From: a virus
DNA: 39,466 nucleotides
Direction: 5' to 3' (one strand)
IMG/VR virus record: IMGVR_UViG_3300031857_020022
Coordinates: 1 to 39,466 of that record
In this document: positions 9,587 through 31,269 of the stretch, piece by piece
Layout of the letters: every line of letters starts with the position of its first letter
Numbering within the stretch: the first letter of the stretch is position 1
Translations under genes and position numbers: made by a program
Notes under the pieces: generated by a model
Database searches by the model: none
Seen by the model: the letters and a program-made list of their open reading frames with translations, nothing else
Told to the model about the DNA's origin: nothing

Positions 9587-10059
9587 TGAGTAACTATAAT
9601 CCAATATATCGTAAATTTGTGGATGATAAAAACGTAATAGCTGCAAATAAAATGACAAGAGGTAAATTTTACCTAATAAAAGAATACGAATATATAGATG
9701 GTGAAAAAACAAGATTTACAGAAACTACAGGACCTATTGTTTTTACGTTGTTTGTTTCTAAAACAAAAGATATTATTCATTGTATAAAAGTTTCTAATAT
9801 AAACCCAAATGCAATTAAAAGATTTTTTGGAAAATTTGTAAATGAAGAAACGGAAAGATTACAAATGAGAGGAAATGCTAAACAAATATATGAAAAAACT
9901 ATAAGTAAAATGCCTACTATAACAAGTGACTCTTATAGAACTTATAAAATAAGTGGGTTAAGAAAAGTATTAGAATTAAATATGGATGTAAACGAAATTA
10001 CACCTAAAAATAAAAATGTAGTTGGAATAGATATTAAATCACAAAAAAGAAATGTATAA
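9586..10059 (+). CDS. Conserved-looking phage protein of unknown function
   Basis: 157 residues, not recognised with certainty. The middle (GPIVFTLFVSKTKDIIHCIKVSNINPNAIKRFFGKF) is a mix of beta strands and a helix, followed by a charged C-terminal half. No signal peptide or membrane segment is seen. It overlaps the upstream glycosyltransferase stop by one base (TAATG). The position inside a sugar cluster does not prove a sugar role; it may be a small virion or scaffold protein carried between cassettes. Confidence 0.7.
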   Translation: MSNYNPIYRKFVDDKNVIAANKMTRGKFYLIKEYEYIDGEKTRFTETTGPIVFTLFVSKTKDIIHCIKVSNINPNAIKRFFGKFVNEETERLQMRGNAKQIYEKTISKMPTITSDSYRTYKISGLRKVLELNMDVNEITPKNKNVVGIDIKSQKRNV

Positions 10060-10065
10060 TAGGTT

Positions 10066-10332
10066 ATGACATCAAAAGAATTTGTTATTTGGTTAAAGGG
10101 ATTTTCAAAAGCAGCAAACTCATATAATATTACACCTGCACAATGGGATGAAATACAAGAGGAATTAGAAAAAGTAAATGATGGTGGAGTTTCAATTGGA
10201 GTAGGCGGACAGGGAATACCAAACGGAACTATAACAGCAACACCTGGTTATGGTACTCTTACATATAATCCATCCACATCAACTACAAATGGATATCCAA
10301 GCGGTAGTAGTTTTCATTATACAAATTTTTAA
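10066..10332 (+). CDS. Small phage protein with helical head and Gly/Ser/Thr tail
   Basis: 88 residues in two parts: a helical N-terminal domain (FVIWLKGFSKAANSYNITPA, then WDEIQEELEKV) and a low-complexity Gly/Thr/Ser/Asn tail. The opening MTSKEFVIWLKGF with a following TPxQWD is, from memory, a recurring small protein of unknown function in myovirus-type phages, which supports the phage assignment. No catalytic residues. Starts 7 bases after the preceding gene. Confidence 0.72.
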   Translation: MTSKEFVIWLKGFSKAANSYNITPAQWDEIQEELEKVNDGGVSIGVGGQGIPNGTITATPGYGTLTYNPSTSTTNGYPSGSSFHYTNF

Positions 10333-10333
10333 T

Positions 10334-11200
10334 ATGAAAAACATATTAGTTACAGGAGGTGCCGGATTTGTTGGATATGCATTGACAAAAGAACTTATTA
10401 AAAGGGGATATAATGTTGATGTTTTAGATAATCTTTACATAGGTGCCAACGAAGCAGTAATTGCAGAAGGTTCTAACTTTTTAAATGGTGATGTTAGAAG
10501 TATGAATAATATGAAAATTAAAGAGTATAAATACATATTTCATTTAGCAGCAATCAGTAGAATACAACCATCTTTTTATAAACCACAATTAACATTTTCC
10601 GTAAACGTAGATGGAACCAGACAGGTAATAGAATATACAATGCCAATTAGAGCAAAACTAATATACGCTGGGTCATCATCTCGTCATCATAATCCAATGT
10701 TATCACCATACGCTATGAGTAAACATATGGGTGAGGAATGGATTAAAATGTATAAAGGTATTTATGGGTTAAACGCAGAAATAGTAAGATTCTATAATGT
10801 ATATGGACCAGGCGAATTAGTAGATTCTCATATGGCAGCAGTAATTGGAATTTGGAGAGCCGCAATCAAAAACGGAGAACCAATTAAAATACATGGTGAT
10901 GGTGAACAAAGGAGAGATTTTACTCACATTGATGATATCGTAGATGGTTTAATCCGTATTGCGGAGAGTGATGAAAAGCATCAAGATGCGTGGGAATTAG
11001 GAACTGGTAAAAATTATTCTCTAAATGAAGTTGCCGATATGTTTGGTGATATTAGAAGGGAATATGTAGATGATGTGAGAGGTAATTATAGAGAAACATT
11101 AAGAATTAACAATGATGCCATTGAAAGATTAGGATGGCAACCAACTGATAAATTAAAAAGTTATATAGATGAAATTAAGTTACGCAATAACAGCTTGTAA
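10334..11200 (+). CDS. NAD-dependent sugar epimerase/dehydratase (extended SDR)
   Basis: Nucleotide-sugar epimerase or dehydratase of 288 residues. The NAD-binding motif TGGAGFVG is at residues 7-14, a serine-rich active-site strand (SSSRHH) and the catalytic Y-x3-K (YAMSK, near 126-130) follow, and the substrate side has RFYNVYGPG and GDGEQRRDFTHIDD, typical of UDP-glucose 4-epimerase, dTDP-glucose dehydratase and related enzymes. The in-frame extension upstream to 10250 is rejected because it precedes the canonical start and overlaps the former gene. It could be the 4-epimerase or, given the other sugar genes, a heptose 6-epimerase relative; the sequence alone does not decide. Confidence 0.93.
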   Translation: MKNILVTGGAGFVGYALTKELIKRGYNVDVLDNLYIGANEAVIAEGSNFLNGDVRSMNNMKIKEYKYIFHLAAISRIQPSFYKPQLTFSVNVDGTRQVIEYTMPIRAKLIYAGSSSRHHNPMLSPYAMSKHMGEEWIKMYKGIYGLNAEIVRFYNVYGPGELVDSHMAAVIGIWRAAIKNGEPIKIHGDGEQRRDFTHIDDIVDGLIRIAESDEKHQDAWELGTGKNYSLNEVADMFGDIRREYVDDVRGNYRETLRINNDAIERLGWQPTDKLKSYIDEIKLRNNSL

Positions 11201-11792
11201 TGAGCATGAAGAGATTATAAGATTAGTTACGCAATTATTGAATTATAAGGGAGAAAATTCAGAAGTTGTAATTCTTTTAGATACACCAAAAGCACCTACT
11301 GAAATGGTTGAGTATTTGGAGTTGCAGGCAAACGCAGACCACATTACTCTAATCGAATCCGAATTTGATAATGATTTTGCACAATGGAAAAACCTATTGA
11401 ACTCACAATGTAAAGGTGAGTGGATATTTCAGTTAGATGCCGATGAATATTTAGAGCCAGATTTGATTGATAATTTGGAGGATATATTAAATAACAACGG
11501 AGATAAAGATATGATTGTTGTTCCTCGTATTAATACGGTTGAAGGATTAACTGAAGCGCATATTCAAAAATGGGGATGGAGAGTGGATGAAAAAGGTTGG
11601 GTTAATTTCCCAGATGTTCAAACTCGTATCTACAAAAACTCTGATAAGATAGGCTGGAGTGGGAAAGTACACGAAAGAATTGTAGGATTTCAAAATTATA
11701 CAGCATTTCCAACTGATGAAATTTATTGTATTAAACATCCAAAAACAATTGAAAGACAAGAAAAGCAAAACAATTATTACGATACTTTATAA
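11169..11792 (+). CDS. GT2-like (GT-A fold) glycosyltransferase
   Basis: Inverting-type GT-A glycosyltransferase, 207 residues. Family features: the opening KLSYAITACNEHEEIIRLV with the NE pair of the nucleotide-binding strand, and the metal-binding DADEY near residues 90-94 (WIFQLDADEYLEP). The later WSGKVHERIVGF is typical of WaaE-type LPS inner-core glucosyltransferase relatives (GKVHE). Its start lies 32 bases inside the epimerase gene, so the pair is translated together. The sugar is unknown. Confidence 0.88.
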   Translation: MKLSYAITACNEHEEIIRLVTQLLNYKGENSEVVILLDTPKAPTEMVEYLELQANADHITLIESEFDNDFAQWKNLLNSQCKGEWIFQLDADEYLEPDLIDNLEDILNNNGDKDMIVVPRINTVEGLTEAHIQKWGWRVDEKGWVNFPDVQTRIYKNSDKIGWSGKVHERIVGFQNYTAFPTDEIYCIKHPKTIERQEKQNNYYDTL

Positions 11793-12463
11793 TGGTACAC
11801 ATTTATTATCACATATATGCTATTGATGGAGTTGAATCTATAATTGATGAACAATTGACGTTGATTCAAAAATTTTTTCAATTCCCATATACATTGAATA
11901 TTGGTATTTCTATTGCAGATGAAAATATAACATCGAGATATATTATTGAAAAAATTTATGGATACAATAAATTGGAATATAAGATTAAAGATATTAGATG
12001 TAAAGGAAACGAATTTGTTACATTAGATTTGATTGAAACGGATAAAGATACATTTAAAGATGAAGATTATGTTTTTTATTTTCACACCAAAGGTGCTTCT
12101 AAAATAAACCATGCATTTTACAATTATATTTGCGATTGGAGGAATCTATTACAATTTTTTAATATAGAAAAAGTAAATAATGTTTTTAAAATTTTTGAAA
12201 AAACTGATTGTAATACATATGGTATAAATTTATTAAGTAAAATTTATAATGAAAAGCCAACACAAATGTATGGTGGAAATTTTTGGTGGGCAAAAGCAAA
12301 ATATATAAAAACAATAAATACAAAAAAATCAGATAAATTTATTAGAGTAGATGCTGAAATAAATTACATTCAAAATGGAATTGATTGGAATCCTTTTAAC
12401 GCATTTAATAGTAATGTAAACCACTATTATGAACCATATCCAAAAAATAATTATGCAAAATAA
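11792..12463 (+). CDS. Probable glycosyltransferase-like protein
   Basis: 223 residues. Motifs YFHTKGASK (about 94-102) and MYGGNFWWAKAKYIKTI (about 159-175) recall uncharacterised capsule and rhamnan-type glycosyltransferase proteins, where an HTKG strand and an NFWW segment are conserved. No classical DxD is plain, though DWRN and DAE could serve. It overlaps the GT2-like gene before it by one base and the CgeB-like gene after it by 11 bases, so it belongs to the same coupled set. The call rests on motif memory and context. Confidence 0.65.
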   Translation: MVHIYYHIYAIDGVESIIDEQLTLIQKFFQFPYTLNIGISIADENITSRYIIEKIYGYNKLEYKIKDIRCKGNEFVTLDLIETDKDTFKDEDYVFYFHTKGASKINHAFYNYICDWRNLLQFFNIEKVNNVFKIFEKTDCNTYGINLLSKIYNEKPTQMYGGNFWWAKAKYIKTINTKKSDKFIRVDAEINYIQNGIDWNPFNAFNSNVNHYYEPYPKNNYAK

Positions 12464-13349
12464 AATAACATTTATATACGATTACAAACAAGGTGAACAA
12501 TGGTCGACACCATTATCATTGGTAAATGAATTTAAAAAAAGAGGTTGGGAAACCGAAATAGTATCAATTGCTAATGGTGATGATTCCCAATTACAATTAT
12601 GGATTCAGCAAGATACACATACTGATATTGTATTATTTATGGATTGGGGTAGATTTGATTCAAAGTGGTTAGATAAATCCTTAAAACCAAATGCATTTTG
12701 GATACAAGAAAGTGGAGATGACCCACAAAACTTTGAAAGAAACTTTCCAAAAGCAAATAGATTTCATTTAACCATAACACCTGCTGCAAATTCATATGAG
12801 GAATATAAAAAAAGAGGTATAAATGTTAGATGGATTACACATTGGGCAGATACTATGGTTCAATTTCCAATGAATGTTGAACCAAAATATGTTGCAGTTA
12901 CAACTAGGGGACCAGGTGGTTCTCAATTTCTTGATTACCTAACAAATTGGGCAGAGGGTGTAATTGGTAATCGTAATGGTATGGGACCAAAAGAACATAC
13001 TGAATTTTTAAATAGTGGATTAATCGTTATACAAAATAGTAGGTGGAGAGAGGTTACTCGTAGAATATTCGAAGGTATGGCTTGCGGTAAATTGGTTATA
13101 ACAGACAGATTACCAGATGAAGCAAAACTTTATAAATTATTTGCGGAAGGTGATGAAATCATTTTATACAACGATATGTTCGATTGTATAGAAAAAATAA
13201 ATTACTATAATGAAAATGAGCAGGAAAGAGAAAGGATAGCATTTAATGGAATGCAAAAGGTGTTAAACAATTATACGCAAATTCAAGTAGTGGATAAATT
13301 AATAGAAGAATATGAAACGTACAGAAATAATAAACATACTAATAGCTAA
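12453..13349 (+). CDS. CgeB-like glycosyltransferase (GT-B C-terminal type)
   Basis: 298 residues. The C-terminal half has VTRRIFEGMACGKLVITDRL (about 199-218), then a FAEGDEIILY strand, the pattern of CgeB/GT1-type transferases that bind the nucleotide sugar through the EGMACG loop. The N-terminal Rossmann-like half starts KITFIYDYKQGEQWSTPL. The ATG at 12453 is chosen over 12429 because the region before it is the end of the previous gene. An overlap of 38 bases with the methyltransferase downstream indicates coupling. Confidence 0.82.
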   Translation: MQNKITFIYDYKQGEQWSTPLSLVNEFKKRGWETEIVSIANGDDSQLQLWIQQDTHTDIVLFMDWGRFDSKWLDKSLKPNAFWIQESGDDPQNFERNFPKANRFHLTITPAANSYEEYKKRGINVRWITHWADTMVQFPMNVEPKYVAVTTRGPGGSQFLDYLTNWAEGVIGNRNGMGPKEHTEFLNSGLIVIQNSRWREVTRRIFEGMACGKLVITDRLPDEAKLYKLFAEGDEIILYNDMFDCIEKINYYNENEQERERIAFNGMQKVLNNYTQIQVVDKLIEEYETYRNNKHTNS

Positions 13350-13908
13350 ATTTGGTTACAAATCTTATTTAGAAATTGGAACACAAGACCCTACATCTAA
13401 TTTTGAATTAATAAATGCAAAATGTAAAGTATCAATTGACCCATTTCCGAGAGGAGAGGTTACATTCGTAGGAACATCGGATGAGTACTTTGAATCGATT
13501 TCAGAAGATGTAAAATTTGATATAATTTTTATTGATGGATTACATCACAACGACCAAGTATTAAAAGATATAGAAAATTCATTAAATCATTTATCGGATA
13601 ATGGAACGATTGTTTGCCACGATTGTTTACCAACAACTGAAAAAATGCAGGAGAGAAATGATCATGGTGGAGAATGGACCGGAGATGTATGGAAAGCAAT
13701 CGCCGAATTGCGAGTTGAAAGAATAGATTTAGATATTAGAGTAGTTGATACCGATTATGGGTGTGGTATAATTCGTAGAGGTACTAATATTCCATACGAA
13801 CCAAATATTGAAAATTATAAAACATATGCATATTATTCAACGCATAGACATATGTTAAATGTTGTATCATTAGAAGAATTTATACAATGGATAAATATAC
13901 AATCATAA
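13312..13908 (+). CDS. Class I SAM-dependent methyltransferase (Methyltransf_24-like)
   Basis: Probable O-methyltransferase of 198 residues. The SAM-binding strand is SYLEIGTQDPTSNF (about 18-31), with the acidic residue closing the second strand at SIDPFPRG. The central DIIFIDGLHHNDQVLKDI (about 78-95) and VCHDCLPTT match Methyltransf_24-type enzymes found in sugar and surface-glycan clusters. It overlaps the CgeB-like gene before it by 38 bases and the glycosyltransferase after it by 22 bases. Likely caps or decorates a glycan; the target is not known. Confidence 0.85.
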   Translation: MKRTEIINILIAKFGYKSYLEIGTQDPTSNFELINAKCKVSIDPFPRGEVTFVGTSDEYFESISEDVKFDIIFIDGLHHNDQVLKDIENSLNHLSDNGTIVCHDCLPTTEKMQERNDHGGEWTGDVWKAIAELRVERIDLDIRVVDTDYGCGIIRRGTNIPYEPNIENYKTYAYYSTHRHMLNVVSLEEFIQWINIQS

Positions 13909-14510
13909 TACCTACACTTTGGAAATCGAATAGAACTTTTAAATTATTAACTTATTTAAAAAATTGCGAATTTGTAGATGAAATTATTATAATTGATAAT
14001 AAATCTGACAAAGTAGAAGATAAAACAGAAGGAAAAATTAGATTAATTTCATTTGGAGAAAACATATATGTTAATCCTGCATGGAATAAAGGAATTGAAT
14101 TGGCAAAAAATCAATCTATTGCATTGGTAAATGATGATATAAATTTTAATCCAAATATATTCGGTGTTATAACAAACGATATTTTATTACAATATGGTAT
14201 TATTGGACAATCTGAATTTAATTATAAAGGGAATAATTCAGATGAACCTATTTTGGAAGTATGGAATAATAAGGTTAGAGATTGGGGTTGGGGTTGTCTT
14301 ATTATGTTTGATAAAACAAATTGGATAGATATTCCGGATGATATTAAAATATGGTATGGCGATGATTATATATTCAAATGCAATCCATCTCCAAAAGCCA
14401 CTATGAAAAATTTTAACATAGAAACTGAAATGAGTACAACATCCGATGAACCAGTATGGGATGAACGAAAGAGAAATGATTATACAAATTTTATAAAATA
14501 TTTACAATAA
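13887..14510 (+). CDS. GT2-like (GT-A fold) glycosyltransferase
   Basis: 207 residues. The start KYTIIIPTLWKSNRTFKLL and VDEIIIIDNKSD form the first two strands of a GT-A fold. NPAWNKGIELAKNQSIALVNDD places the metal-binding acidic pair (NDDI, about 77-80). WGWGCLIMFDKTNW and IWYGDDYIF form the acceptor loop typical of small family 2 transferases. It overlaps both neighbours by a few bases and is part of the same coupled series. Confidence 0.85.
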   Translation: MDKYTIIIPTLWKSNRTFKLLTYLKNCEFVDEIIIIDNKSDKVEDKTEGKIRLISFGENIYVNPAWNKGIELAKNQSIALVNDDINFNPNIFGVITNDILLQYGIIGQSEFNYKGNNSDEPILEVWNNKVRDWGWGCLIMFDKTNWIDIPDDIKIWYGDDYIFKCNPSPKATMKNFNIETEMSTTSDEPVWDERKRNDYTNFIKYLQ

Positions 14511-15187
14511 TGGTTACAAAAGAACAATCCGATTTTAATGCTATAATGTTAAATGCATTGTTATGGCATACGATGTCCGACAAGATAAATTTTACCGAAA
14601 TAACAGGTTGGCACAATTCTCATCCTTATTTGAGATTAAACATTTATAATGGTGTTCAAATGTCGCAAGTATTGGGAGTATATCTTGCATTAAATCCAAA
14701 CTACATATCTGAATTTGATAATATAATTGAAATTGGAACATATAATGGTGGATTAACATCTTGGTTATATGATAATAAAAATCCAAATGCAATGGTGGTA
14801 TCATATGATATTGATGGGAGTATCAATCATACAAAAAGAACTGATATAGATTTCAGAGTAGAAGATTGTTTTGAAGAAAAATCATTTAATGAAATCATTT
14901 CTTATATTCAAAGACCTGGTAAAACTTTGTTCGTATGTGATGGTGGTGATAAACCAAAAGAATTCAGTATATTTTCGGAATATCTAAAAAGTGGAGATGT
15001 TATCATTGCACACGACTATGCAAAGAATCCAGAATATTGGAAATTTGTAACCAATTATTGGCAATGGCCGTATGAATCCGATACAAATTATGATAGTATA
15101 AGAGATGCAATTATCAAAAATGGATTAGAACCATATAGAGATGATGAATTTAATTTTTATTTGTGGACAAGTTATATTAAAAAATAA
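14510..15187 (+). CDS. CmcI-like SAM methyltransferase
   Basis: 225 residues. The SAM-binding loop is IIEIGTYNGGLTSWLYD (about 71-87), and the second region LFVCDGGDKPKEFSIFSEYL followed by GDVIIAHDYAKN matches CmcI/rhamnosyl O-methyltransferase-type proteins, in which the Asp residues bind a metal. Such enzymes often O-methylate sugars. The ATG overlaps the previous stop by one base. Together with the methyltransferase at 13312 it suggests that the glycan carries methyl groups at two places. Confidence 0.8.
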   Translation: MVTKEQSDFNAIMLNALLWHTMSDKINFTEITGWHNSHPYLRLNIYNGVQMSQVLGVYLALNPNYISEFDNIIEIGTYNGGLTSWLYDNKNPNAMVVSYDIDGSINHTKRTDIDFRVEDCFEEKSFNEIISYIQRPGKTLFVCDGGDKPKEFSIFSEYLKSGDVIIAHDYAKNPEYWKFVTNYWQWPYESDTNYDSIRDAIIKNGLEPYRDDEFNFYLWTSYIKK

Positions 15188-15190
15188 AGT

Positions 15191-15934
15191 ATGAATAAAT
15201 TACCAATTAGTATAGGAATATTGAGTTGGCATAGTGGACAAGTTTTAGTAGATACCCTAACAACATATTACAATAATGGATTATTTGATATAGTTGATGA
15301 TGTAACTATTCTTTTTCAGGAATTTAATGAACAAGATTATCAAATAGCAAAGCATTTTGGATTGAATGTTATTGGTATGAATTCTAATATTGGAATTGGA
15401 AAAGCATTTATTAAATTAACTGAAAATGCAAAGAACGATTATGTTTTAGTATTAGAACATGATTGGAATTTAATTGAAGATAAAGAAACTACACACAATA
15501 CATTGAAGAGAAGTATATCAGCAATTGAAATGGGAATGGATGTTGTCCGTTTAAGACATAGAAAGAATCCAGGTTATCCACATTTTTCATTTAGACATAA
15601 AGGTGAAGAATTAACTTATTTCGATGAAGAAATTGGAGCAACATCACCACATCTTTTGGATTCAATACATTGGTGCGATGCTGATATTGAATTTTCAGAA
15701 CAAATCAAAAAATCAGAAGATATGTTTTGGACTACATCTCGTTACGGTAATTGGACAAACAACCCATGTTTATACAAAAAACAATTTTATTTAGATGTTG
15801 TTAAACCATTTGCTGGTGATGGAATTGCATTGGAAGGAAATATAGGTAGATGGTGGGTTCAGCAAGAATATAAAGTAGGACACAACGAAGGATTGTTCAT
15901 GCATAACGATTGGCAAAAATACGGAAGAAGATGA
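15191..15934 (+). CDS. Probable GT-A fold glycosyltransferase
   Basis: 247 residues. Opening LPISIGILSWHSGQVLVDTL resembles the first strand of family 2 transferases. VLVLEHDWNLIED (about 89-101) is in the place of the metal-binding motif, with a single D rather than DxD. MFWTTSRYGNWTNNPCLYKK and the terminal His-rich NEGLFMHNDW are probably acceptor or metal ligands. Three bases separate it from the preceding methyltransferase, and it shares ATGA with the next gene. Confidence 0.72.
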   Translation: MNKLPISIGILSWHSGQVLVDTLTTYYNNGLFDIVDDVTILFQEFNEQDYQIAKHFGLNVIGMNSNIGIGKAFIKLTENAKNDYVLVLEHDWNLIEDKETTHNTLKRSISAIEMGMDVVRLRHRKNPGYPHFSFRHKGEELTYFDEEIGATSPHLLDSIHWCDADIEFSEQIKKSEDMFWTTSRYGNWTNNPCLYKKQFYLDVVKPFAGDGIALEGNIGRWWVQQEYKVGHNEGLFMHNDWQKYGRR

Positions 15935-16722
15935 AATATACAATAATAAGTTCTCTAACAAATTATGGTGTAGAGCAAATTAGACCTTTTGTAGAATCCA
16001 TAAATACATGTGGGTATAAAGGAGAAAAATTAATGTTGGTTTATAATGTATCGGAAGATGTAATACGATATTTGGATGATAATGGTTGGTTAATAGCACA
16101 ATCGGAAGAACAGCAACACATTATTTTACAAAGATTCAGAGACATGTATGCTTTACTTCAAACTTATCAAACTGATGTAATTATTTGGGTTGATGTAAAG
16201 GATATAGTATTTCAAAAAGACCCAACCGAATGGTTAAATAAATGGATGCAAAGAGATATTTTAGCATTTAGTGAATCCTTAAAATTTGGAGATGAAGAGT
16301 GGGCCAGATTAAATGCTGGAACCAGTTTTCCTATGGAATGGGAATGGTTACAAAAAAAAGAAATATATTGCGCAGGAACGATTGTAGGTAAAAGAGAAGC
16401 AATAAAAGATTTGTTTATTGACATTTATAGATGGAGTTTAACAACGGCAAATCCTCAACAATTAGCCGACCAAGCTGCATATAATATTTTAATTCATATG
16501 TATCAATGGAAAGATAAAGTTCAATTTGTAAAACAACAAGAAGGATTTGCAGCTCAGTTACATTTAAAGTTAAAAAAGGGAGATACACTACCGTATACCG
16601 AAGAATTACCAACTATTGATGGTGATGAAATTAAAAACTCAAAGGGTGAACTATATACATTAGTTCATCAATATGATAGAAACGAAGAACTTAAAAAAAT
16701 AATAGAAAACAAATACAAATGA
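15931..16722 (+). CDS. Probable GT-A fold glycosyltransferase
   Basis: 263 residues. TDVIIWVDVKDIVFQKDP (about 63-80) carries a DVKD acidic motif where GT8-like and related transferases have DxD. CAGTIVGKREAIKDLF and DQAAYNILI match the late part of nucleotide-diphospho-sugar transferases. The in-frame start at 15910 lies inside the previous gene; the ATG at 15931 forms an ATGA junction and gives the normal opening MKYTIISSLTNYG. Donor unknown. Confidence 0.75.
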   Translation: MKYTIISSLTNYGVEQIRPFVESINTCGYKGEKLMLVYNVSEDVIRYLDDNGWLIAQSEEQQHIILQRFRDMYALLQTYQTDVIIWVDVKDIVFQKDPTEWLNKWMQRDILAFSESLKFGDEEWARLNAGTSFPMEWEWLQKKEIYCAGTIVGKREAIKDLFIDIYRWSLTTANPQQLADQAAYNILIHMYQWKDKVQFVKQQEGFAAQLHLKLKKGDTLPYTEELPTIDGDEIKNSKGELYTLVHQYDRNEELKKIIENKYK

Positions 16723-17621
16723 AAAAAATAGTTATAACATCTTTCGTAATGCCACATGAGTTGGATGATTTAGAAAGAGTATTGGTTGATTTGAATAAAG
16801 CATCTAAATTTATAGATGGAATGAATTATGAATTTTATATTTCATTTTCAATTTCCGATTACTTATTTGATTGGGAAAATTCAAAAGTAGACAAACAATT
16901 CTTTATTGATAGATTCAATTCAATGAAACCACTAACGGATTGGGCCGGTAAGGCAACATACCAAATAAGAGATGAAATATTTGGAGCATTTCAATGTAAA
17001 CGATATGCACATATGGAATGTAAAGATGCAACGCATTTTATTTGGTTGGATACTGATATTTGCTTTGATGATAAGATTCTTTATTATATGGAAGCAAGTA
17101 TTGATAGATTGAAACAAACCGACCCAAATGTTGATAAATATTTTATTACTCCTGAAATAGTAAAATATTGGGATACTACTTGGGATTGTTTAGTCAATGA
17201 AAACTACCTTAATAAAGAATTAGATTATTGCAAAACAAATAATCCATTCTCTGAAAGTGGTGAGGTTGGTGATGTTGAATTATTATCAGTAATAAACAAT
17301 GTTCCCGGACAACCAAGAACTAAATTTGGAGCAGGTTGGTTTACATTATTATCAAAGCCCCTATTAGATAGAATACCTTTGCCAGAATCAATGGGTGCGT
17401 ATGGTCCTGATGATACATTTTTAATGTGGGGTATTGAAAAATTAAATCAAACAGGAGCAAACATATATCAATTTAAATTAAAAAATTATATTGTTTGTGA
17501 AAATTATATTTATAGAAATAGAAAACATTACGATTCTATAATCAAAAGAATTGATAGAAAAGAAGAATTTAAAAATAAAGCATTTAGTAACTTTCAATTA
17601 GAAATAGATAAAATACAATGA
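16719..17621 (+). CDS. Probable GT-A fold glycosyltransferase
   Basis: 300 residues. The strand HFIWLDTDICFDDKILYYM (about 105-123) has a classical DTD metal motif. FGAGWFTLLSKPLLDRI and YGPDDTFLMWGIE form the acceptor loop and the second acidic site common in large family 2 transferases. It overlaps its neighbours on both sides by 4 bases. It is the last clear glycosyltransferase in the series and is followed by the second dioxygenase. Confidence 0.82.
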   Translation: MKKIVITSFVMPHELDDLERVLVDLNKASKFIDGMNYEFYISFSISDYLFDWENSKVDKQFFIDRFNSMKPLTDWAGKATYQIRDEIFGAFQCKRYAHMECKDATHFIWLDTDICFDDKILYYMEASIDRLKQTDPNVDKYFITPEIVKYWDTTWDCLVNENYLNKELDYCKTNNPFSESGEVGDVELLSVINNVPGQPRTKFGAGWFTLLSKPLLDRIPLPESMGAYGPDDTFLMWGIEKLNQTGANIYQFKLKNYIVCENYIYRNRKHYDSIIKRIDRKEEFKNKAFSNFQLEIDKIQ

Positions 17622-20498: not shown

Positions 20499-21092
20499 AT
20501 GGAACAAACGGATAATTTTTTCCCAAATTTAGATGAAACACCAAAGGGAAAAAGAGGATTGGGAGCAAAACCACTCCTTGAATCACAAATAAAAGCAGCA
20601 CAAGAAAAATCCCGTTCAGCATTTGAAGCTGCACGATTGTTAGGAGTATCTTACAATACTTACAAAAAGTATGCAAAACTATATGGTATTTTCGAAGACC
20701 TTAAAAATCCATATGGTATTGGAATTGAGAAAGCAAAAAAGATTAAAAATAAAAAATATCACATAGAGGAGTTGATAGATGGTAAACATCTTCACTATCC
20801 ACTACATAAATTTAAAAATAAATTATTTGATAGTGGATATGTTCCAAAAGTTTGTGGTAGTTGTGGATTTAGTGAAGCCAGAATTACGGATGGTAAAATG
20901 CCACTACTCATAGATTTTTTGGATGGCAATTTGAACAATAGAAAATTAGATAATATCAGACCGCTTTGCTACAATTGTTTCTTTCTTTTAGTCGGAGATA
21001 GAAATGTAAAAAATTGGTATGCAGAGAACGGTGGACAAATAACCGAAGATGAAGAAAAGAATTTACAGGAGCAAAGTTCCATTCAGGATTAG
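20499..21092 (+). CDS. Degenerate HNH/treble-clef protein with HTH region
   Basis: 197 residues. Residues about 47-67 (FEAARLLGVSYNTYKKYAKL) look like a helix-turn-helix. The second half is a treble-clef finger: CGSCG (about 120-124), then LLIDFLDGNLNNRKLDNIRP and LCYNC (about 155-159). In active HNH enzymes the second block reads LxxHHxDGxxxN; here the two His are replaced by Asp and Phe. The zinc fold seems intact but the catalytic His is missing, so the protein is more likely a DNA-binding regulator than a nuclease. Its end overlaps the sugar kinase start by 44 bases. Confidence 0.75.
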   Translation: MEQTDNFFPNLDETPKGKRGLGAKPLLESQIKAAQEKSRSAFEAARLLGVSYNTYKKYAKLYGIFEDLKNPYGIGIEKAKKIKNKKYHIEELIDGKHLHYPLHKFKNKLFDSGYVPKVCGSCGFSEARITDGKMPLLIDFLDGNLNNRKLDNIRPLCYNCFFLLVGDRNVKNWYAENGGQITEDEEKNLQEQSSIQD

Positions 21093-22083
21093 TTTCGGTG
21101 GTGGTGGAACTGATATGCCCGATTATTGTAAACACCATACCGGTGCAGTAATTAATACTACAATTCGTTTGTTTACTCATACATCGTTAGAATTGAGGGA
21201 AGATGGTAAGGTATCGTTTTATTGGGTAAATAAAGAGGAAAGAGAGGAGCATGATTTCAGTAATGAGTTAGATTGTTCTTATGGATTAAAACTCTTTAAA
21301 GCAACCCACAATCACATATGTAAGAGATTTAAGTTAGACCCTTTTGGATATGATATAGTTAGTTGGCAAGATGTTCCAACGGGAAGTGGATTAGGTACTT
21401 CATCTACATTAATTGTTTCTCTTATTGGAGTTTATATGGAATTATTCAATTTACCATTGGGAGAATATGACATAGCCGAAATGGCAATCCAAATAGAAAG
21501 AGTTGAATTGGCAGAGAATGGTGGAAAACAGGATCAGTACGCAGCAGCATTTGGTGGATTCAACTACATGGAATTTAAAGGAGATGATGTGATTGTAAAT
21601 CCACTTCGCATTAAAGATAGCGTACAGGATGAATTAGAAAATAATGTGGTTCTTTATTTTACAAATTTTACAAGAAATAGTTCTGATGTGTTGGAAGAAC
21701 AAGTTACTAAAATGAAAAATAAAAATAAAACATCGGTATTATCTTTACATGCATTGGTAGAGCAAGCAAAATTAATGAAGGATTGTTTGATAAAAGGGAA
21801 TATAGATGATTTGGGTGAGATATTGGATTATGGATTTCAGCAAAAGAAAATGTTAGCAAAGGGAATAAGTACGCCTGAAATAGAATTACTATATGAAACG
21901 GCTTTAGCAGCCGGAGCAACTGGTGGTAAAATAAGTGGTGCAGGTGGAGGTGGTTTTATGTTTTTCTATTGTCCAAACAATACAAAATATGATGTTATCA
22001 AAGCATTGGACAAATTAAACATGGGATATCATCAACCATTCACTTGGAATAAATTGGGTATTAGGACTTGGCAAATTGGATAA
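21049..22083 (+). CDS. hddA: GHMP kinase, D-glycero-D-manno-heptose-7-phosphate kinase-like
   Basis: Sugar kinase of 344 residues. The start RSKVPFRISFGGGGTDMPDY is the family hallmark, the ATP loop is PTGSGLGTSSTLIVSL (about 110-125), and the third motif is GGKISGAGGGGFMFF (about 292-306). HddA makes heptose 1,7-bisphosphate on the way to GDP-heptose; fucokinase-type enzymes are close relatives and cannot be excluded. The start at 21049 keeps the whole conserved N-terminus and overlaps the HNH-like gene. With the nucleotidyltransferase at 28287 and the epimerase at 10334 it suggests a heptose-nucleotide pathway (inference). Confidence 0.87.
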   Translation: MKKRIYRSKVPFRISFGGGGTDMPDYCKHHTGAVINTTIRLFTHTSLELREDGKVSFYWVNKEEREEHDFSNELDCSYGLKLFKATHNHICKRFKLDPFGYDIVSWQDVPTGSGLGTSSTLIVSLIGVYMELFNLPLGEYDIAEMAIQIERVELAENGGKQDQYAAAFGGFNYMEFKGDDVIVNPLRIKDSVQDELENNVVLYFTNFTRNSSDVLEEQVTKMKNKNKTSVLSLHALVEQAKLMKDCLIKGNIDDLGEILDYGFQQKKMLAKGISTPEIELLYETALAAGATGGKISGAGGGGFMFFYCPNNTKYDVIKALDKLNMGYHQPFTWNKLGIRTWQIG

Positions 22084-22120: not shown

Positions 22121-22531
22121 ATGGCATATAGTGAAAAGGTGTTAGACCATTATTCTAACCCAAAGAACGTAGGAACATTAGATAAATCTAAATCGAATGT
22201 AGGTACGGGATTGGTAGGTGCACCCGAATGTGGTGATGTAATGAGATTACAAATCGAAGTAAATGATGGTGTGATAACCGATGCTAAATTCAAAACTTTT
22301 GGGTGTGGTTCGGCAATCGCGGCATCTTCCCTAGCAACTGAATGGTTGAAGGGTAAGAGTGTAGATGAAGCCCTAACGATTGATAATATGGATTTGGTAG
22401 AAGAACTAAATCTACCGCCTGTAAAAATACATTGTTCGGTATTGGCAGAAGATGCAATTAAATCGGCAATAAACGATTATAGAAAAAAGCAAGGATTAGA
22501 AGAATTAATTTTTGAAGAATCACATATATGA
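22121..22531 (+). CDS. iscU: Iron-sulfur cluster scaffold protein IscU
   Basis: Scaffold on which 2Fe-2S and 4Fe-4S clusters are built before transfer to target proteins. The 136 residues are full length for the family (about 128). All ligands are present: C37 and D39 in GAPECGDV, C62 in FGCGSAIA, and H104-C105 in the chaperone-binding LPPVKIHC motif. No IscS, HscA or HscB gene is seen in the window, so sulfur and chaperones would come from the host. It shares ATGA with iscA. Possible clients here are the ferredoxin (28718) and the nuclease (6049). Confidence 0.96.
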   Translation: MAYSEKVLDHYSNPKNVGTLDKSKSNVGTGLVGAPECGDVMRLQIEVNDGVITDAKFKTFGCGSAIAASSLATEWLKGKSVDEALTIDNMDLVEELNLPPVKIHCSVLAEDAIKSAINDYRKKQGLEELIFEESHI

Positions 22532-22851
22532 TTACAGTTTCAGAATCAGCAGCAAAAAAATTAAAATCACTGATTGAAGAAAGTGGGTTTACCACTCCTT
22601 ATGTTAGAGTGGCAGTTAAGGGTGGTGGTTGTAGTGGTTTATCATATGACCTTTCATTTGATACCGACCAACATCCTACCGATACAATTGCAGAAGACAA
22701 GGGTGTAAAAATTTTAGTAGACAATAAATCGTTACTATACCTATTCGGTACTGAATTAGAATTTTCAGATGGTTTAAATGGTAAAGGTTTTCAGTTTATA
22801 AATCCCAACGCTAGCCGAACTTGCGGATGTGGAGAAAGTTTCGCAGTATGA
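22528..22851 (+). CDS. iscA: A-type iron-sulfur carrier IscA
   Basis: A-type carrier that receives iron or clusters and passes them to apoproteins. The 107 residues hold the three conserved cysteines: C35 in KGGGCSGLSY and C99, C101 in TCGCGESF. The length and the C-terminus match IscA/ErpA/HesB. It is coupled to iscU by ATGA and to the cupin by ATGA, so the three are translated together. Single IscA-like genes occur in some large phages; the pair with a full IscU is less common to my knowledge. Confidence 0.96.
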   Translation: MITVSESAAKKLKSLIEESGFTTPYVRVAVKGGGCSGLSYDLSFDTDQHPTDTIAEDKGVKILVDNKSLLYLFGTELEFSDGLNGKGFQFINPNASRTCGCGESFAV

Positions 22852-24464: not shown

Positions 24465-27400
24465 ATGAAAAAGACAATTTTGTCGTTAGTATTCGCAGCA
24501 TTTACGATGGTAGGTTTCGGACAAATCACAACCTCAACCATTTCAGGTGTTGTAAAGAATGAAAAGAAAGAAGTGTTGGCAGGTGCAACCATTCATGCGG
24601 TTCACACACCAACAGGGACAGAGTACACAACTACAACAAACAAAGGTGGTGTATATGTTTTACCTGCGGTAAGAGTAGGTGGACCATATGTTATCCATGC
24701 TTCGTTTGTAGGATTTAAGAAAGGAGAAGAGAAAGATGTGAATACCGAATTAGGTCTTACATCTAATGTGAACTTCGTATTAATTGATGAAGCTAAGGCT
24801 TTAAAAGAAGTAGTAGTAGTTGCAGGTAAGTCTCTATTCTCAAAAGAGAAGACCGGTGCTGCACAACAATTCGGACGTAGAGAATTAACTACTATTCCAA
24901 TTACGGGAGCAAGAACTATTGATGGGATTACAAAGTATAACCCATTCGGTAATGGTAATTCATTCGGTGCACAAGATAGCCGTATGAATAACTTTACAAT
25001 TGATGGTTCTCAATTTAACAACAACTTCGGTTTAGGTTCATCTGCACAGGCGGGTGGTAGAACAGGCGCAAGTGCGATTTCATTGGATGCGATTGACCAA
25101 TTACAGGTTAACGTAGCACCATTTGATATTCGTCAGAGTGGTTTCACAGGTGCGGGTATCAATGCAGTAACTCGTTCAGGTACTAACCAAATTGAAGGTT
25201 CGGTGTATCAAACACAAAGAGATAATAGTTCTCGTTATGTGGGTGATAACGCAAGAGGAACAACCGTAACTGCATCTAAATTTGATGAGAAAGTACAAGG
25301 TTTCCGTTTGGGAGCACCGATTATCAAAAACAAATTATTTATCTTTGGTAACTACGAACAAATTGAAAGAACAGAGCCAGGTACAACTTGGATTTCCGAT
25401 GGTTCACCACTTACAGGTACTCAAATTAGTAGAGTAAAGTATAGTGATATGCAAACTCTTTCTACATTTATGAAAGAGAAGTTTAACTATACAACTGGTC
25501 CATGGGAAGGTTATTCTAACACAAACACTTCAAAAAAGTTTTTGATTAGAACTGACTGGAACATTAACGATAAAAATAAATTGACAGCTCGTTACGTTCA
25601 CCATAATTCTGAAGCAGAGATTAATATTTCAAACTCTCAATCAGCAGGTGCAGGTAATAGAACTACACAATTCAACGCAATGTCATTTAAGAATAGTGGA
25701 TATACTATTCAGGACAATACTCGTTCAGCAGTATTGGAATTGAACTCTAAAATCTCTAACACACTTCACAATAACCTAATCGTTTCTTACGATAAGCAAA
25801 TTGAGAATAGAGGATATATGAGCTCTATGTTTCCAACTATTGATATTAGAGAAGGTTCAGCAACTTACACTTCAGTAGGTTTTGACCCATTCACTCCATC
25901 AAACAAATTGGACTATTGGACATTTAACGTAACAAACAACTTAACAAAGTATATGGAAAAACATACTTTGGTTGGTGGTTTCAACTTCCAAAAGTATCAA
26001 TCTAATAATCTATTCTATCCAGCATCAAATGGTGTTTACATCTTTAATAGTTTGAATGATTTCTACACTGCAGCTAATCAATCATTAGCAAATGGTGGTA
26101 GACCTTCTACATTTGCACCAGCTCGTTTCCAATTCCGTTATTCGGCATTACCAGGAGCAGTTGAACCAATGCAAGTGTTAAAGACAAATCGTTTGGATTT
26201 GTATTTGCAAGATGAATATAATGCAACTCAAAACCTTAAATTAACTTTTGGTTTGAGAGCAAACGTAATTGCATTTGAAAATACCGCTTTAGAAAATCCT
26301 GCAATTACTGCAATGACTTTCGCAAATGGTGAGAAATGGAACACAGGTGTAATGCCTAAAACACAATTATTGTTTGAACCTCGTTTTGGTTTCAACTATG
26401 ATGTGAAAGGTGAAAAGAAAACACAAATCCGTGGTGGTAGTGGTATATTCACTGGTAGACCTCCTTATGTATTCTTATCTAACCAAATTGGTAACAATGG
26501 TGTGTTGACAGGATTTATTGATGTATCAGGCGCGGCAGCAGCTAACTATGGTTTCACTGCTAATCCAAATCAATACTTTGTTCCTTCAACTCCAACATTA
26601 CCTTCAACATTTGATTTAGCATTGACTGACCCTAACTACAAAATGCCACAAGTTTGGAAAAACAATTTGGCAGTTGACCAAAAGTTACCATGGTTAGGTT
26701 TAGTAGCTAGTGTTGAGGTTCTTTACAATAAAACACTTAATGCAGTTCATTACTACAATGCCAATTTGGATAAACCAGTTGGTACATTGTTAGGTGTTGA
26801 TAACAGACCACTTTACGCAGGTAATGACGCCGGTGTGAGAGTAAATGATAACGTATCAATGGCAGCAGTTCTTACAAATAGAAATGGTGCTTACAATCGT
26901 TCAATCACTTACAAATTGGAAAAACCAATCTCTAACGGTCTTTGGGGTTATGTAGCATATACAAATGCACAAGCTGAAGACTTTATGAGTGCCGGTTCAA
27001 TCGCAAGTGGTAGCTGGCAATCAGCAGTATCAGTATTTGGTAACAACACATTAAACCTTTCAACATCCGACTTCGTAGTTAGAAATCGTATTGTAGGTTT
27101 ATTAGGTTATAGAATTGATTATGGTAAGAAGTATGGTGGAGCAACTACATTTACATTAGGATATGTAGGAGCACAAAACAATCCATTCTCTTACATCATA
27201 GCAGGTGACTTGAATGGTGATAGAGTATCAAACAATGATTTGGTATTCGTTCCACAAAAAGGTTCTGATATTCGTTTCGCACCATTAACAGTAGGAACTA
27301 GAGTTTATACTGAAGTAGAACAACAGGCAGCATTTGATGCATTTATTTCGCAAGACCCTTACCTTTCAACTCGTAGAGGTCAATACGCAGAAAGAAACGC

Positions 27401-27734
27401 ATTAGACCTTCCGTTCTTACATAGATTCGACCTTTCAGTTGCACAAGATGTTTTCATAAAGATTAAAGAAAAGAGAAACGCTTTCCAAATTCGTTTCGAT
27501 ATTCTTAACTTTGGAAATATGTTGAATAACAAATGGGGTGTTTCTCAAAGAGCAGGTGCTCCACAATTGTTGAACTTTGTTAGCAGAGATGCGGCAGGTG
27601 TTCCAACATATAGATTAGCAACACAAAGAGATGCTAGTGGAACCTATTTGGCAAAAGATACATATCAATACAATTCATCTGTATTTGATGTATGGACAGC
27701 TCAATTGGGTATTCGCTACACTTTTGGTAGATAA
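24465..27734 (+). CDS. TonB-dependent outer-membrane receptor, Oar/CarboxypepD_reg type
   Basis: 1089 residues, a complete receptor. A Sec signal peptide (1-19, ending VGFGQ) is followed by a carboxypeptidase regulatory-like domain (about 24-105, ISGVVKNEKKEVLAGATIHA) and a plug domain (about 115-235, with NNFTIDGSQFNNNFG and GFTGAGINAVTRSGTNQ). A large beta-barrel runs to the C-terminus, which ends in LGIRYTFGR with the usual aromatic residue. The order matches Bacteroidota Oar-like receptors. It is flanked by two intrinsic terminators, and no SusD-type partner is adjacent, so polysaccharide uptake of the SusCD kind is not indicated. Codon use favours CGT and AAC/TTC more than the glycan genes. 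It could change uptake, replace a phage receptor, or block superinfection; all are inference. Confidence 0.95.
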   Translation: MKKTILSLVFAAFTMVGFGQITTSTISGVVKNEKKEVLAGATIHAVHTPTGTEYTTTTNKGGVYVLPAVRVGGPYVIHASFVGFKKGEEKDVNTELGLTSNVNFVLIDEAKALKEVVVVAGKSLFSKEKTGAAQQFGRRELTTIPITGARTIDGITKYNPFGNGNSFGAQDSRMNNFTIDGSQFNNNFGLGSSAQAGGRTGASAISLDAIDQLQVNVAPFDIRQSGFTGAGINAVTRSGTNQIEGSVYQTQRDNSSRYVGDNARGTTVTASKFDEKVQGFRLGAPIIKNKLFIFGNYEQIERTEPGTTWISDGSPLTGTQISRVKYSDMQTLSTFMKEKFNYTTGPWEGYSNTNTSKKFLIRTDWNINDKNKLTARYVHHNSEAEINISNSQSAGAGNRTTQFNAMSFKNSGYTIQDNTRSAVLELNSKISNTLHNNLIVSYDKQIENRGYMSSMFPTIDIREGSATYTSVGFDPFTPSNKLDYWTFNVTNNLTKYMEKHTLVGGFNFQKYQSNNLFYPASNGVYIFNSLNDFYTAANQSLANGGRPSTFAPARFQFRYSALPGAVEPMQVLKTNRLDLYLQDEYNATQNLKLTFGLRANVIAFENTALENPAITAMTFANGEKWNTGVMPKTQLLFEPRFGFNYDVKGEKKTQIRGGSGIFTGRPPYVFLSNQIGNNGVLTGFIDVSGAAAANYGFTANPNQYFVPSTPTLPSTFDLALTDPNYKMPQVWKNNLAVDQKLPWLGLVASVEVLYNKTLNAVHYYNANLDKPVGTLLGVDNRPLYAGNDAGVRVNDNVSMAAVLTNRNGAYNRSITYKLEKPISNGLWGYVAYTNAQAEDFMSAGSIASGSWQSAVSVFGNNTLNLSTSDFVVRNRIVGLLGYRIDYGKKYGGATTFTLGYVGAQNNPFSYIIAGDLNGDRVSNNDLVFVPQKGSDIRFAPLTVGTRVYTEVEQQAAFDAFISQDPYLSTRRGQYAERNALDLPFLHRFDLSVAQDVFIKIKEKRNAFQIRFDILNFGNMLNNKWGVSQRAGAPQLLNFVSRDAAGVPTYRLATQRDASGTYLAKDTYQYNSSVFDVWTAQLGIRYTFGR

Positions 27735-28300: not shown

Positions 28301-28721
28301 AACACTTGTTATAGTAAGTGGATATTTCAATCCAATTCACGAAGGACACATAGAATACCTCAATCGTTCAAAAGCGCTTGGGGATTTTCTATTTGTAATA
28401 ATCAATAACGATTATCAGAGACGTTTAAAAGGTTCTAAACCATTTATGACAGAAGAACAAAGAAGAACTATACTAAAAAATATAAAAGCAGTTGATGATG
28501 TGATTGTTTCAATTGATGAAAATAAATTTGTTGATAGAACAATAGAATTAATTGTTAGAGAAATGGGTGATAAATTTGATAGAATACTTTTTACAAATGG
28601 TGGTGACCAAACTGCAGAAACGATAGGTGAAAAAGATATATGTGAAAAGTTAGGAATCGAAATGGTATTTGGATTGGGTGATAAAATTCAATCTTCATCT
28701 TGGTTATTAAATAAGATATGA
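28287..28721 (+). CDS. Cytidylyltransferase-like nucleotidyltransferase (RfaE/HldE C-terminal type)
   Basis: 144 residues, a single nucleotidyltransferase domain. The hallmark [19 protein letters not shown] (about 9-27) contains HxGH for nucleotide binding; [19 protein letters not shown] and the EEQRRTIL lid follow, as in HldE C-terminal domains, TagD and related enzymes. The expected reaction is NTP plus a sugar- or polyol-phosphate to an NDP-linked product and pyrophosphate. With the HddA-like kinase it could complete an NDP-heptose. It overlaps its two neighbours. Confidence 0.88.
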
Positions 28722-29026
28722 GTTATATAATTGGAAATCCTTGTGTTAGTTGTATTGATGCAAGTTGTGTTAGAGTTTGTCCTGTAGATTGTATACATGG
28801 TCCTATAAAAACAGATGATTCGGCTAGAGATGCCTTTAACTTAACAGATGAGGAAAGGCAAGGAAAGCAATTATATATCAATCCTGATGATTGTATTAAG
28901 TGTGGCGCATGTGTACCAGAATGTCCCGTAGATGCAATATACAGAACGGAAGAGGAAGCAATTAGAGCAGGTGATGAAATATCAGTACATAAAAACTATG
29001 AGTTCTTTGGTCTTAAATTTTCGTAA
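28718..29026 (+). CDS. 7Fe/8Fe ferredoxin (FdxA-like)
   Basis: 102-residue electron carrier. Cysteines C9, C12, C17, C21, C25 ([19 protein letters not shown]) and C59, C62, C65, C69 ([16 protein letters not shown]) have the same spacing as the 7Fe ferredoxin of Azotobacter (FdI), which binds one 3Fe-4S and one 4Fe-4S cluster. The gene is joined to the nucleotidyltransferase by ATGA. It may supply electrons to a reductase or to the dioxygenases, or replace host ferredoxin. Confidence 0.93.
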
Positions 29027-29518: not shown

Positions 29519-30547
29519 ATGATAAAGTTAAAAGACCTTTTAAAGGAAGATGATATCGTAAAAAACAAAAAGACCGGGAACGTCTATATGGTAAAAAAGA
29601 TGGACCCGGCAAAACACGATAAACCCACTCCTGCGGAAGTTGAAAAAACAAAAGCAGCAAATAATGGTCAAATTCCTAAAGGTGAAAAACCAGTAGCACC
29701 TCAACAAACACCCCAACAACAAAAGAAAGCACCCGCAGCACAAAAAATGGGTGCATCGGATTTCAAATCATCAGCAGAAAAGGGTAGTGATACTAAATCA
29801 ACTACAGGTAAAAGACCTGGAGCAGATGATATGAAATTAAAAAATCTAATGCCAGGTATTGATACGACAAAGAAAACATTAGACCAAATTCCACCCGCAG
29901 CAAAAATGGAACTATCCACAAAAATAGATGGATTAGTTGATATGGTAAAACAGGCAAAAGCAAAGGGTGAAAAGCCTGAATATTTTAATCTATGTAAAGT
30001 AACAGTTCCAGGAACAAACTTATATTGTGATGGTAATTTGGGTATTGATAGAAATGATATGCCACAATTTAAAGGCAATCCAAGACCTGGTTCACCTGCA
30101 GCTGAAATGCCAAAAAACAAAGATGGGGAAGTTGATGGTGAGGCATTCTTTAAACAACTTTTACAAAGAGATGGAATTAAAGTAGATGGCCCGCATGAAG
30201 TACCACCAGACCGTTTAAAAGCAACTCAAATGAATATGGTTGGTGATAAGGTAGCCGGAATGTATGATGCATTGGAACAAGACCCGACCAATCCGGCATT
30301 AACTGCACCGATATATGTTTCTAATGATGGTTATGTATTAGATGGACACCACAGATGGGCAGCAATCGTAGCATACAATGCAAAAAATCCAGATAACCCA
30401 ATTCCTATGAAGGTAATGGTTATTGATGAACCTATTAAACCTTTGGTAAAAAGAGCAAACGATTACGCAGATTATATTGGAATAGAAAAGAAAGCAGCAG
30501 TTGCAGGACAAGGTAATCCAGCACTAGCACCTGAAAAAAAAAAGTAA
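29519..30547 (+). CDS. ParB/sulfiredoxin-fold protein, zero-frame product
   Basis: 342 residues. The first 120 are a Lys/Pro/Gln-rich linker; the opening MIKLKDLLKED recalls the short leader of many T4-like head proteins. The domain about 225-320 has APIYVSNDGYVLDGHHRWAA, the ParB-like nuclease motif (DGHHR-x-A), with MKVMVID after it. A block DMKLKNLMPGID (about 102-113) is echoed in the HAD protein at 19168 (DMSLKSLLPKDL). It ends in KKK at a 10-A run, where a -1 shift would join it to the next ORF. Confidence 0.8.
   Translation: MIKLKDLLKEDDIVKNKKTGNVYMVKKMDPAKHDKPTPAEVEKTKAANNGQIPKGEKPVAPQQTPQQQKKAPAAQKMGASDFKSSAEKGSDTKSTTGKRPGADDMKLKNLMPGIDTTKKTLDQIPPAAKMELSTKIDGLVDMVKQAKAKGEKPEYFNLCKVTVPGTNLYCDGNLGIDRNDMPQFKGNPRPGSPAAEMPKNKDGEVDGEAFFKQLLQRDGIKVDGPHEVPPDRLKATQMNMVGDKVAGMYDALEQDPTNPALTAPIYVSNDGYVLDGHHRWAAIVAYNAKNPDNPIPMKVMVIDEPIKPLVKRANDYADYIGIEKKAAVAGQGNPALAPEKKK
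30538..30544 (+). other. Candidate -1 ribosomal frameshift site (A AAA AAG)
   Basis: The heptamer A AAA AAG, the same as in the dnaX frameshift site, is in the reading frame of the upstream gene. It lies at the end of a run of ten A (30534-30543), immediately before that gene's TAA (30545-30547). A -1 slip gives GTA AAT CCC AAA and continues with no stop into the next ORF. The fusion would be about 583 residues. A single-base homopolymer error would give the same picture. Confidence 0.6.
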
Positions 30548-30588
30548 ATCCCAAACCGTCTAAAAGAGTTTCTTCTCAAGGTGAAGAA

Positions 30589-31269
30589 ATGGGAACAATC
30601 CAAACTAAAAATGGTTCAACTATTTTTGGTGTAGAACATGATAACATCGAAGGTGCTAAACAAGTAGTAGATGATGTTAAAAATATGTACCCAAAAGATA
30701 CTAAACTTGTCTTTTTGGGAGAAGGGGGTGATGAAAATAATGTTTATGTAAAAGGTTCCGAACAGGAATATATTCATAACGAACTTAAAAAACACTATCC
30801 AAATTTTACAAACGATAGTTGGGATGGTGCCGATTTAGATGTACACAACGACCAATCGGAATTATATACATATCAGGAAAAGAAAACCGGATTACCACAT
30901 GAAATAGTAATGGCAGGTAATTGGGCAAACATGGTAGGTCAGGGTGAAGGATTGGATACTATGAACCCAACAGATTACCTAACCGATGAAGGTAAACAAT
31001 TCTTACAAGATGCGGCTAAAGAAGCTGGATTTCCACCAATTAAAAGTTTTGACAAACCTACAAAAAGAGATATAGATACTCTATATAGATTATCATACCC
31101 ACAAGATAATGGGGATAAAAAAACAAAAGTAGGTGAATTATCCGATACATTTAACGATGCAAGAGATGAAAATCTAATTCGTAAAATGAAAAAATACGAA
31201 GATGCTGGATATAAAGTAGTTTCTGCAGCAGGACATGGTCATGTAGATATGATAAAAAATAGAAAATAA
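30589..31269 (+). CDS. Downstream ORF, likely C-terminal part of the frameshift fusion; TraB/TIKI-like in part
   Basis: 226 residues from the first ATG, but the frame is open from the slippery site at 30544 with no stop, adding VNPKPSKRVSSQGEE. It is predicted mixed alpha/beta. KLVFLGEGGDENNVY near the start and the late pair FNDARDENLIRKM and YKVVSAAGHGHVDM (about 185-220) resemble TraB/PrgY/TIKI-type proteins, where RDxxM and a VxGAGH strand form the core; this is distant similarity. It could be a separate protein, but its position and open frame favour a fused domain. Confidence 0.65.
   Translation: MGTIQTKNGSTIFGVEHDNIEGAKQVVDDVKNMYPKDTKLVFLGEGGDENNVYVKGSEQEYIHNELKKHYPNFTNDSWDGADLDVHNDQSELYTYQEKKTGLPHEIVMAGNWANMVGQGEGLDTMNPTDYLTDEGKQFLQDAAKEAGFPPIKSFDKPTKRDIDTLYRLSYPQDNGDKKTKVGELSDTFNDARDENLIRKMKKYEDAGYKVVSAAGHGHVDMIKNRK

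Follow-up and report, generated by a model that had tools for sequence, protein, structure and literature searches.

We found that two consecutive open reading frames (ORF1 and ORF2) of an uncultured phage are probably joined by a conserved programmed frameshift. The gene is of the virion-cargo type, and slippage in a run of ten A's, probably by RNA polymerase, would allow it to produce both a short protein and a fusion. The DNA analysed (the window) is a virus record of 39,466 bases. The phage appears T4-like and its host is probably a member of the Bacteroidota; by the capsid protein of a related contig (L012), the nearest cultured relative is Flavobacterium phage immuto (54%). The relevant features are listed here.

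29519 to 30547, + strand: ORF1 (342 amino acids), with a leader, a low-complexity linker, a ParB/sulfiredoxin-fold domain and the tail ...LAPEKKK-stop; the predicted short product.
29519 to 29548, + strand: leader MIKLKDLLKE, putatively a capsid targeting sequence of the T4 type, containing an L-x-E site for the prohead protease.
30056 to 30478, + strand: putative ParB/sulfiredoxin-fold domain with the motif DGHHRWAA (AlphaFold model, Foldseek).
30533 to 30547, + strand: slip cassette G-A10-G-TAA, with the zero-frame stop immediately 3' of the homopolymer.
30538 to 30544, + strand: heptamer A_AAA_AAG, in the zero frame within the A run (sequence reading).
30544 to 30588, + strand: linker VNPKPSKRVSSQGEE, in the -1 frame only (frame reading and codon-position comparison).
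30544 to 31269, + strand: -1 extension of 241 codons that includes the ORF2 domain (226 amino acids from the ATG at 30589), a compact alpha/beta fold.

Direct reading of the sequence places a G at 30533, ten A's at 30534-30543, a G at 30544 and TAA at 30545-30547. The zero frame across the run is ...CCT GAA AAA AAA AAG TAA, the end of ORF1. From 30544, the -1 frame gives VNPKPSKRVSSQGEE-MGTIQTK... and continues for 241 codons. A preliminary description of this DNA had reported A AAA AAG followed by TAA in the zero frame and a -1 frame open into a 226-residue ORF, and both are present as described (30538-30544 followed by 30545-30547, and no -1 stop until 31267-31269). This A10 is the longest A run in the 39.5-kb window and the only one of nine or more; the remaining runs of at least eight are all A8. 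Based on codon usage, the probability of GAA AAA AAA AAG given EKKK is about 0.11 per lineage. Because the lineages are related, this argument for a selected A run is suggestive only.

With standard decoding, translation would stop at the TAA after ...PEKKK and yield a protein with the leader and the ParB/sulfiredoxin-fold domain. We infer that slippage occurs at A10. RNA polymerase, most likely that of the host, would add one A or drop two in a fraction of transcripts, and translation of the slipped transcript would continue in the -1 frame (...EKKK-VNPKPSKRVSS...) and add the 226-amino acid domain. Fusion would give the second domain the N-terminal leader that is otherwise missing from ORF2.

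We looked for relatives by protein, with ORF2 (three close contigs) and ORF1 (one more), and by profile searches, in which the ParB-like domain was detected at 80 loci and the ORF2 domain at 73. Seven contigs (the window, L001, L002, L003, L006, L099 and L112) had the split layout, an identical G-A10-G-TA(A/G) and an open -1 frame. The zero-frame stop was TAG in five of the seven and TAA in two. A 13-base stretch, AAAAAAAAAAGTA, was invariant across all seven and the flanks varied, a pattern beyond what chance would produce. ORF2 of L006 shared only 46% identity with its counterpart in the window. L012 has an in-frame fusion of ORF1 and ORF2 (594 amino acids) in which the linker is five bases shorter and the A10 is retained; a second assembly, L060, is identical at the fused gene. 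A one-base insertion in L012 would give GTC TAA and thus a short protein, so both products would still be possible, with the ratio reversed. The run had exactly ten A's in eight of eight distinct contigs that carry it (the seven split contigs and L012), which are homologous sequences that share ancestry and are not phylogenetically independent.

These comparisons bear on two simple alternatives. The preliminary description had raised a homopolymer error (A10 for A11) that hides one ordinary gene, and in other relatives a fused gene is indeed the normal arrangement: dozens of phage proteins of approximately 1,200-2,450 amino acids combine the ParB-like domain and the ORF2 domain in a single open reading frame, often adjacent and without an A10. 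However, seven assemblies with ORF2 sequences that have diverged by up to 54% would each need the same error and a zero-frame TAA or TAG directly behind it. The independent assemblies agree on A10, and we rejected this explanation as having a negligible chance of being correct. Alternatively, a change in run length at the level of DNA could turn the fusion on or off within the population. Replication slippage is a source of mutation in long homopolymers and the layout would work in this way, but no run of nine or eleven was found in the eight contigs, and the in-frame L012 had altered its linker by five bases and not its run. We rejected phase variation as highly improbable, given that there were no run-length variants among the contigs.

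The slippery site anticipated in the preliminary description is thus kept in the seven split contigs and as A10 in the fused L012, and the proposal of a short ParB-like product plus a longer fusion gained support from L012 and the many larger fused proteins. The EKKK tail was missing from ORF1s that have no ORF2 downstream (L013, L014, L016 and L018). Because solo ORF1s and in-frame fusions both occur, some relatives have the short form alone and others have the long form. Homologues with two separate proteins had been named as evidence against fusion; one split pair (L123:4970-6795) lacks the A run and has a possible GTG start. ORF2 thus seems able to survive as a gene of its own that begins at GTG, and L123 may represent loss of the slip cassette. 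Neither a comparison with cultured phages nor a search of genome contigs gave a match to ORF2, and ORF1 had only distant matches, to ParB domains, among cultured phages.

The -1 frame evolves as protein. Most differences between the run and the ATG fell on third codon positions of this frame: by codon position, they were [12,0,20] in subtype-1 linkers and [18,17,55] in subtype 2. The linkers of both subtypes had no stops in the -1 frame and had stops in both other frames. In the L099 extension, the first ATG, GTG or TTG is only at codon 35, past the conserved glycine and histidine. The -1 frame is thus under protein-level constraint from the run onward. This constraint, together with the lack of a usable early start codon in L099, makes frameshifting the best explanation for this arrangement.

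We also considered that these are two separate genes, with ORF2 re-initiating at the ATG at 30589 and the openness of the -1 frame incidental. An ATG is at the equivalent place in the window and L001-L003, with AAGGTG upstream in some, and L123 shows the split layout with no A run. Yet the linker ahead of the ATG is constrained as -1 frame protein, L099 has no start codon ahead of the conserved core, and the same Met is an internal residue of the in-frame fusion in L012. Separate genes would also leave the A10 unexplained and ORF2 without the leader. An independent start for ORF2 is disfavoured by L099 and the linker constraint, and we consider it very unlikely.

A frameshift at this site could be made by the ribosome or by RNA polymerase. 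The preliminary description had called it dnaX-type, that is, programmed -1 ribosomal frameshifting at A_AAA_AAG, which would give a fusion of the same sequence. The heptamer is in the zero frame of all seven split homologues with the stop right behind it, and it is one of the heptamers at which shifting is most frequent in E. coli (PMC5009743, PMC4066793). However, E. coli heptamers without a stimulator give at most a 10-fold increase over background (PMC4066793), and folds of 80 nt 3' of the run revealed no stable hairpin in the seven homologues (z from -1.5 to +1.1), in agreement with the earlier view that there is no strong stimulatory stem. A reading of the window sequence also revealed no obvious AGGAG-like Shine-Dalgarno element 10-14 nt upstream of the site. 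Furthermore, the window-type joint always has ten A's, and the heptamer needs six.

The heptamer and the run length could be separated at a second joint with the same cassette, which we found by scanning IMG/VR for that purpose (L306-L385; examples are L234:2379-3118 and L382 around 2001). In related T4-like phages, this joint has an ORF1 that is ~111 amino acids long (EF-hand-like, DGEIEGSDLAALR) and a -1 extension of ~135 amino acids, directly upstream of a gene for a gp21-like prohead protease. The extension had no match in cultured phages. In the 47 distinct junctions that carry a run, 37 had A10, nine had A11, one had A9 and none was shorter; the 202-kb contig L012 has A11 at this joint, and L385 is a further locus that lacks the A run. 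The final codon varied (AAG, AAA, AAC, AGG or other), as did the codons before it (GAA, CAA, AAA and others), and a zero-frame A_AAA_AAG was absent from 10 of the 47. The length of the run is conserved, whereas the last codon varies and the heptamer is sometimes lost; selection thus appears to favour run length, in line with slippage by RNA polymerase (PMC3711429, PMC6260861). This evidence comes from a gene pair other than that in the window and is indirect for the window site.

Based on the lack of a stem and on a second joint that keeps run length rather than the heptamer, we favour transcriptional over ribosomal slippage as the main and rather likely mechanism. The features fit what favours transcriptional slippage: a homopolymer of about nine or more A's, a conserved length and no need for stimulators. 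Runs of more than seven A's are typical of transcriptional realignment, and dnaX genes with ten A's have been assigned to it (PMC3711429). Slippage by bacterial RNA polymerase requires at least seven T's and more for A's (PMC6260861), and in Citrobacter tssM, transcriptional slippage on an A11 run amounts to 20-25% with no stimulator (PMC4256274). The dnaX-type label is therefore not established, and we regard purely ribosomal frameshifting as rather unlikely; it is possible that ribosomes slip at the window site or that both mechanisms work together. Neither the window nor 200 kb of the L012 contig contained tRNA genes.

Transcriptional slippage at this site would have close parallels. tssM1 of Citrobacter rodentium and tssM3 of Yersinia pseudotuberculosis also have a long first-frame A run and two C-terminal variants and lack a stimulatory structure; slippage yields a longer product in one species and a shorter one in the other (PMC4256274), a predicted parallel to the window and L012. 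In contrast, tssM1 is a bacterial secretion gene with A11, a stop 28 nt downstream and experimental proof (PMC4256274), whereas the window has A10 and a stop immediately after the run in a phage gene for which slippage is predicted. dnaX, with its tau and gamma products, is similar in having the same heptamer or run length and short and long products with a common N-terminus; the mechanism is ribosomal at A_AAA_AAG in E. coli and transcriptional at A9 in Thermus and A10 in other species (PMC3711429). In E. coli dnaX, by contrast, it is the shorter product that comes from the shift, which depends on a stem and a Shine-Dalgarno-like element; no such stem or element was seen in the window. The tail chaperones G and GT of lambda are likewise a short and an extended phage protein made by -1 frameshifting, but the proteins are unrelated and the site is usually a heptamer.

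Two scans for the A10 cassette gave at least 85 distinct G-A10-G-TA(A/G) sites. Among the 85 sites listed, 53 end an open reading frame of at least 80 amino acids with EKKK-stop, and among those 53, at least 80 further codons follow in the -1 frame at 39 and in the +1 frame at four; these counts include the joints above, count related contigs separately and describe the matches listed rather than frequencies. At L182:9092-11460 (- strand) and L189:7685-10269 (+ strand), a Mu-type portal protein ends with EKKK-stop on the cassette and the next protein is in the -1 frame; by Pfam, these pairs are Portal_Mu and Phage_Mu_F. L196:6721-9116 (- strand) has a portal/MuF-like pair on the cassette by reading only. 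Pairs of ~127 and ~106 amino acids that resemble tail chaperones G/GT are joined by A10 in L204:2607-3307, L221, L228, L236, L242, L245, L247 and L266; a comparison with PHROGs did not confirm this identity. Another conserved, in-frame A10-G run (TTTTA10GTTC) lies within a gene of ~420 amino acids at L036:4630, L048:4606, L049:4604 and L070:4834, where slippage would alter or truncate the protein. We consider it an even call that this phage clade uses runs of 9-11 A's as standard joints with exchangeable C-terminal modules, so that a virion-protein gene gives a base form and a form extended by a module in a ratio set by polymerase, at two or more loci (the cargo-type gene of the window and a head-module gene beside that of the prohead protease), and that the same cassette joins Mu portal and MuF genes in unrelated phages.

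ORF1 begins with MIKLKDLLKE and a conserved segment, followed by the low-complexity linker and the domain. It matched phrog_2859 (E=3e-19), a match to SerK (E=0.008) was far below the family cut-off, and a Pfam search gave no match. With the model of the ORF1 domain, the best Foldseek matches were sulfiredoxin and ParB-N, and others were Noc, ParB and PadC, all with E>0.05. Together with a DGHHR-type motif, these results weakly support a ParB/sulfiredoxin fold. The earlier term "ParB-like" therefore holds in this weak sense of fold, without a Pfam match or a Foldseek match at E of 0.05 or below.

The leader resembles the capsid targeting sequence of T4, an N-terminal propeptide of 10-19 amino acids that ends in L/I-x-E (PMC9026906). 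A strict leader pattern had four N-terminal matches, three of them convincing, and none at 845 internal Met residues. A loose L/I-x-E was found at 29 of 201 N-termini, hardly above the control at internal Met residues (12.5%); the enrichment stands out for the strict pattern only. A gp21-type prohead protease (PF03420) is encoded in three of ten related contigs. Contig L012 carries genes for a T4-type major capsid protein, for a prohead protease and, adjoining the protease gene, for a 211-amino acid protein with the leader MIRLKNLLKE. By analogy with T4, the leader probably routes both forms of the product into the prohead. Eight loci (L094-L098, L116, L117 and L133) have the ORF2 domain directly behind the same leader, with no ParB-like domain, and leader and cargo seem to be freely combined. 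The T4 internal proteins and Alt similarly have variable cargo behind a short propeptide ending in L/I-x-E, and a gp21-type protease is present both in T4 and in contigs related to the window (PMC9026906). They differ in that their cargo has no detected homology to that of the window, and packaging is here predicted from sequence.

The model of ORF2 was confident (pLDDT 92.9) and without a clear structural match. Structural comparison gave phosphoglycerate mutase (Z 6.8), HopBA1 (Z 6.7) and EreC (Z 6.2), a Pfam match to TraB/PrgY/GumN was sub-threshold (E=0.054), and a sequence search of solved structures gave no meaningful match. ORF2 is a compact alpha/beta fold, possibly similar to EreA, ChaN and TraB, a superfamily with conserved GxxH / E / GxxH motifs.

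The cassette has also been a site of exchange. Contigs L003 and L006 are 89% identical over 2.5 kb up to a few bases past the G of the run, and their ORF2s differ beyond this shared stretch. Because the shared DNA ends at the cassette, the cassette marks a breakpoint, with the C-terminal domain exchanged behind it, in this one clear case. Exchange at the run suggests a simple route to optional modules in which the parent protein is kept. If the shift is transcriptional, then ratios of phage proteins would be set by slippage of what is presumably the host RNA polymerase. Gene-finding programs divide genes of this kind or predict the second half as a protein of its own, and fusion products are missed. 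The frameshift mechanism is already known; its use at this gene pair and in this group of phages appears to be new within the records and papers searched. To our knowledge, no T4 cargo gene uses an A-run frameshift.

Several other genes in the window were recognized. At 24465-27734 is a 1089-amino acid outer-membrane beta-barrel protein with a CarboxypepD_reg domain, similar to TonB receptors (Pfam OMP_b-brl_4, E=1.5e-50). Iron-sulfur assembly proteins of the IscU and IscA/ErpA types and a 4Fe-4S ferredoxin are encoded at 22121-22851 and 28718-29026. A long block at 6942-17621 reads as glycosyltransferases and sugar enzymes (Glycos_transf_1 was confirmed only for 6942-8321), and a gene similar to heptose-7-phosphate kinase is at 21049-22083; together, the block and the kinase-like gene suggest glycan modification.
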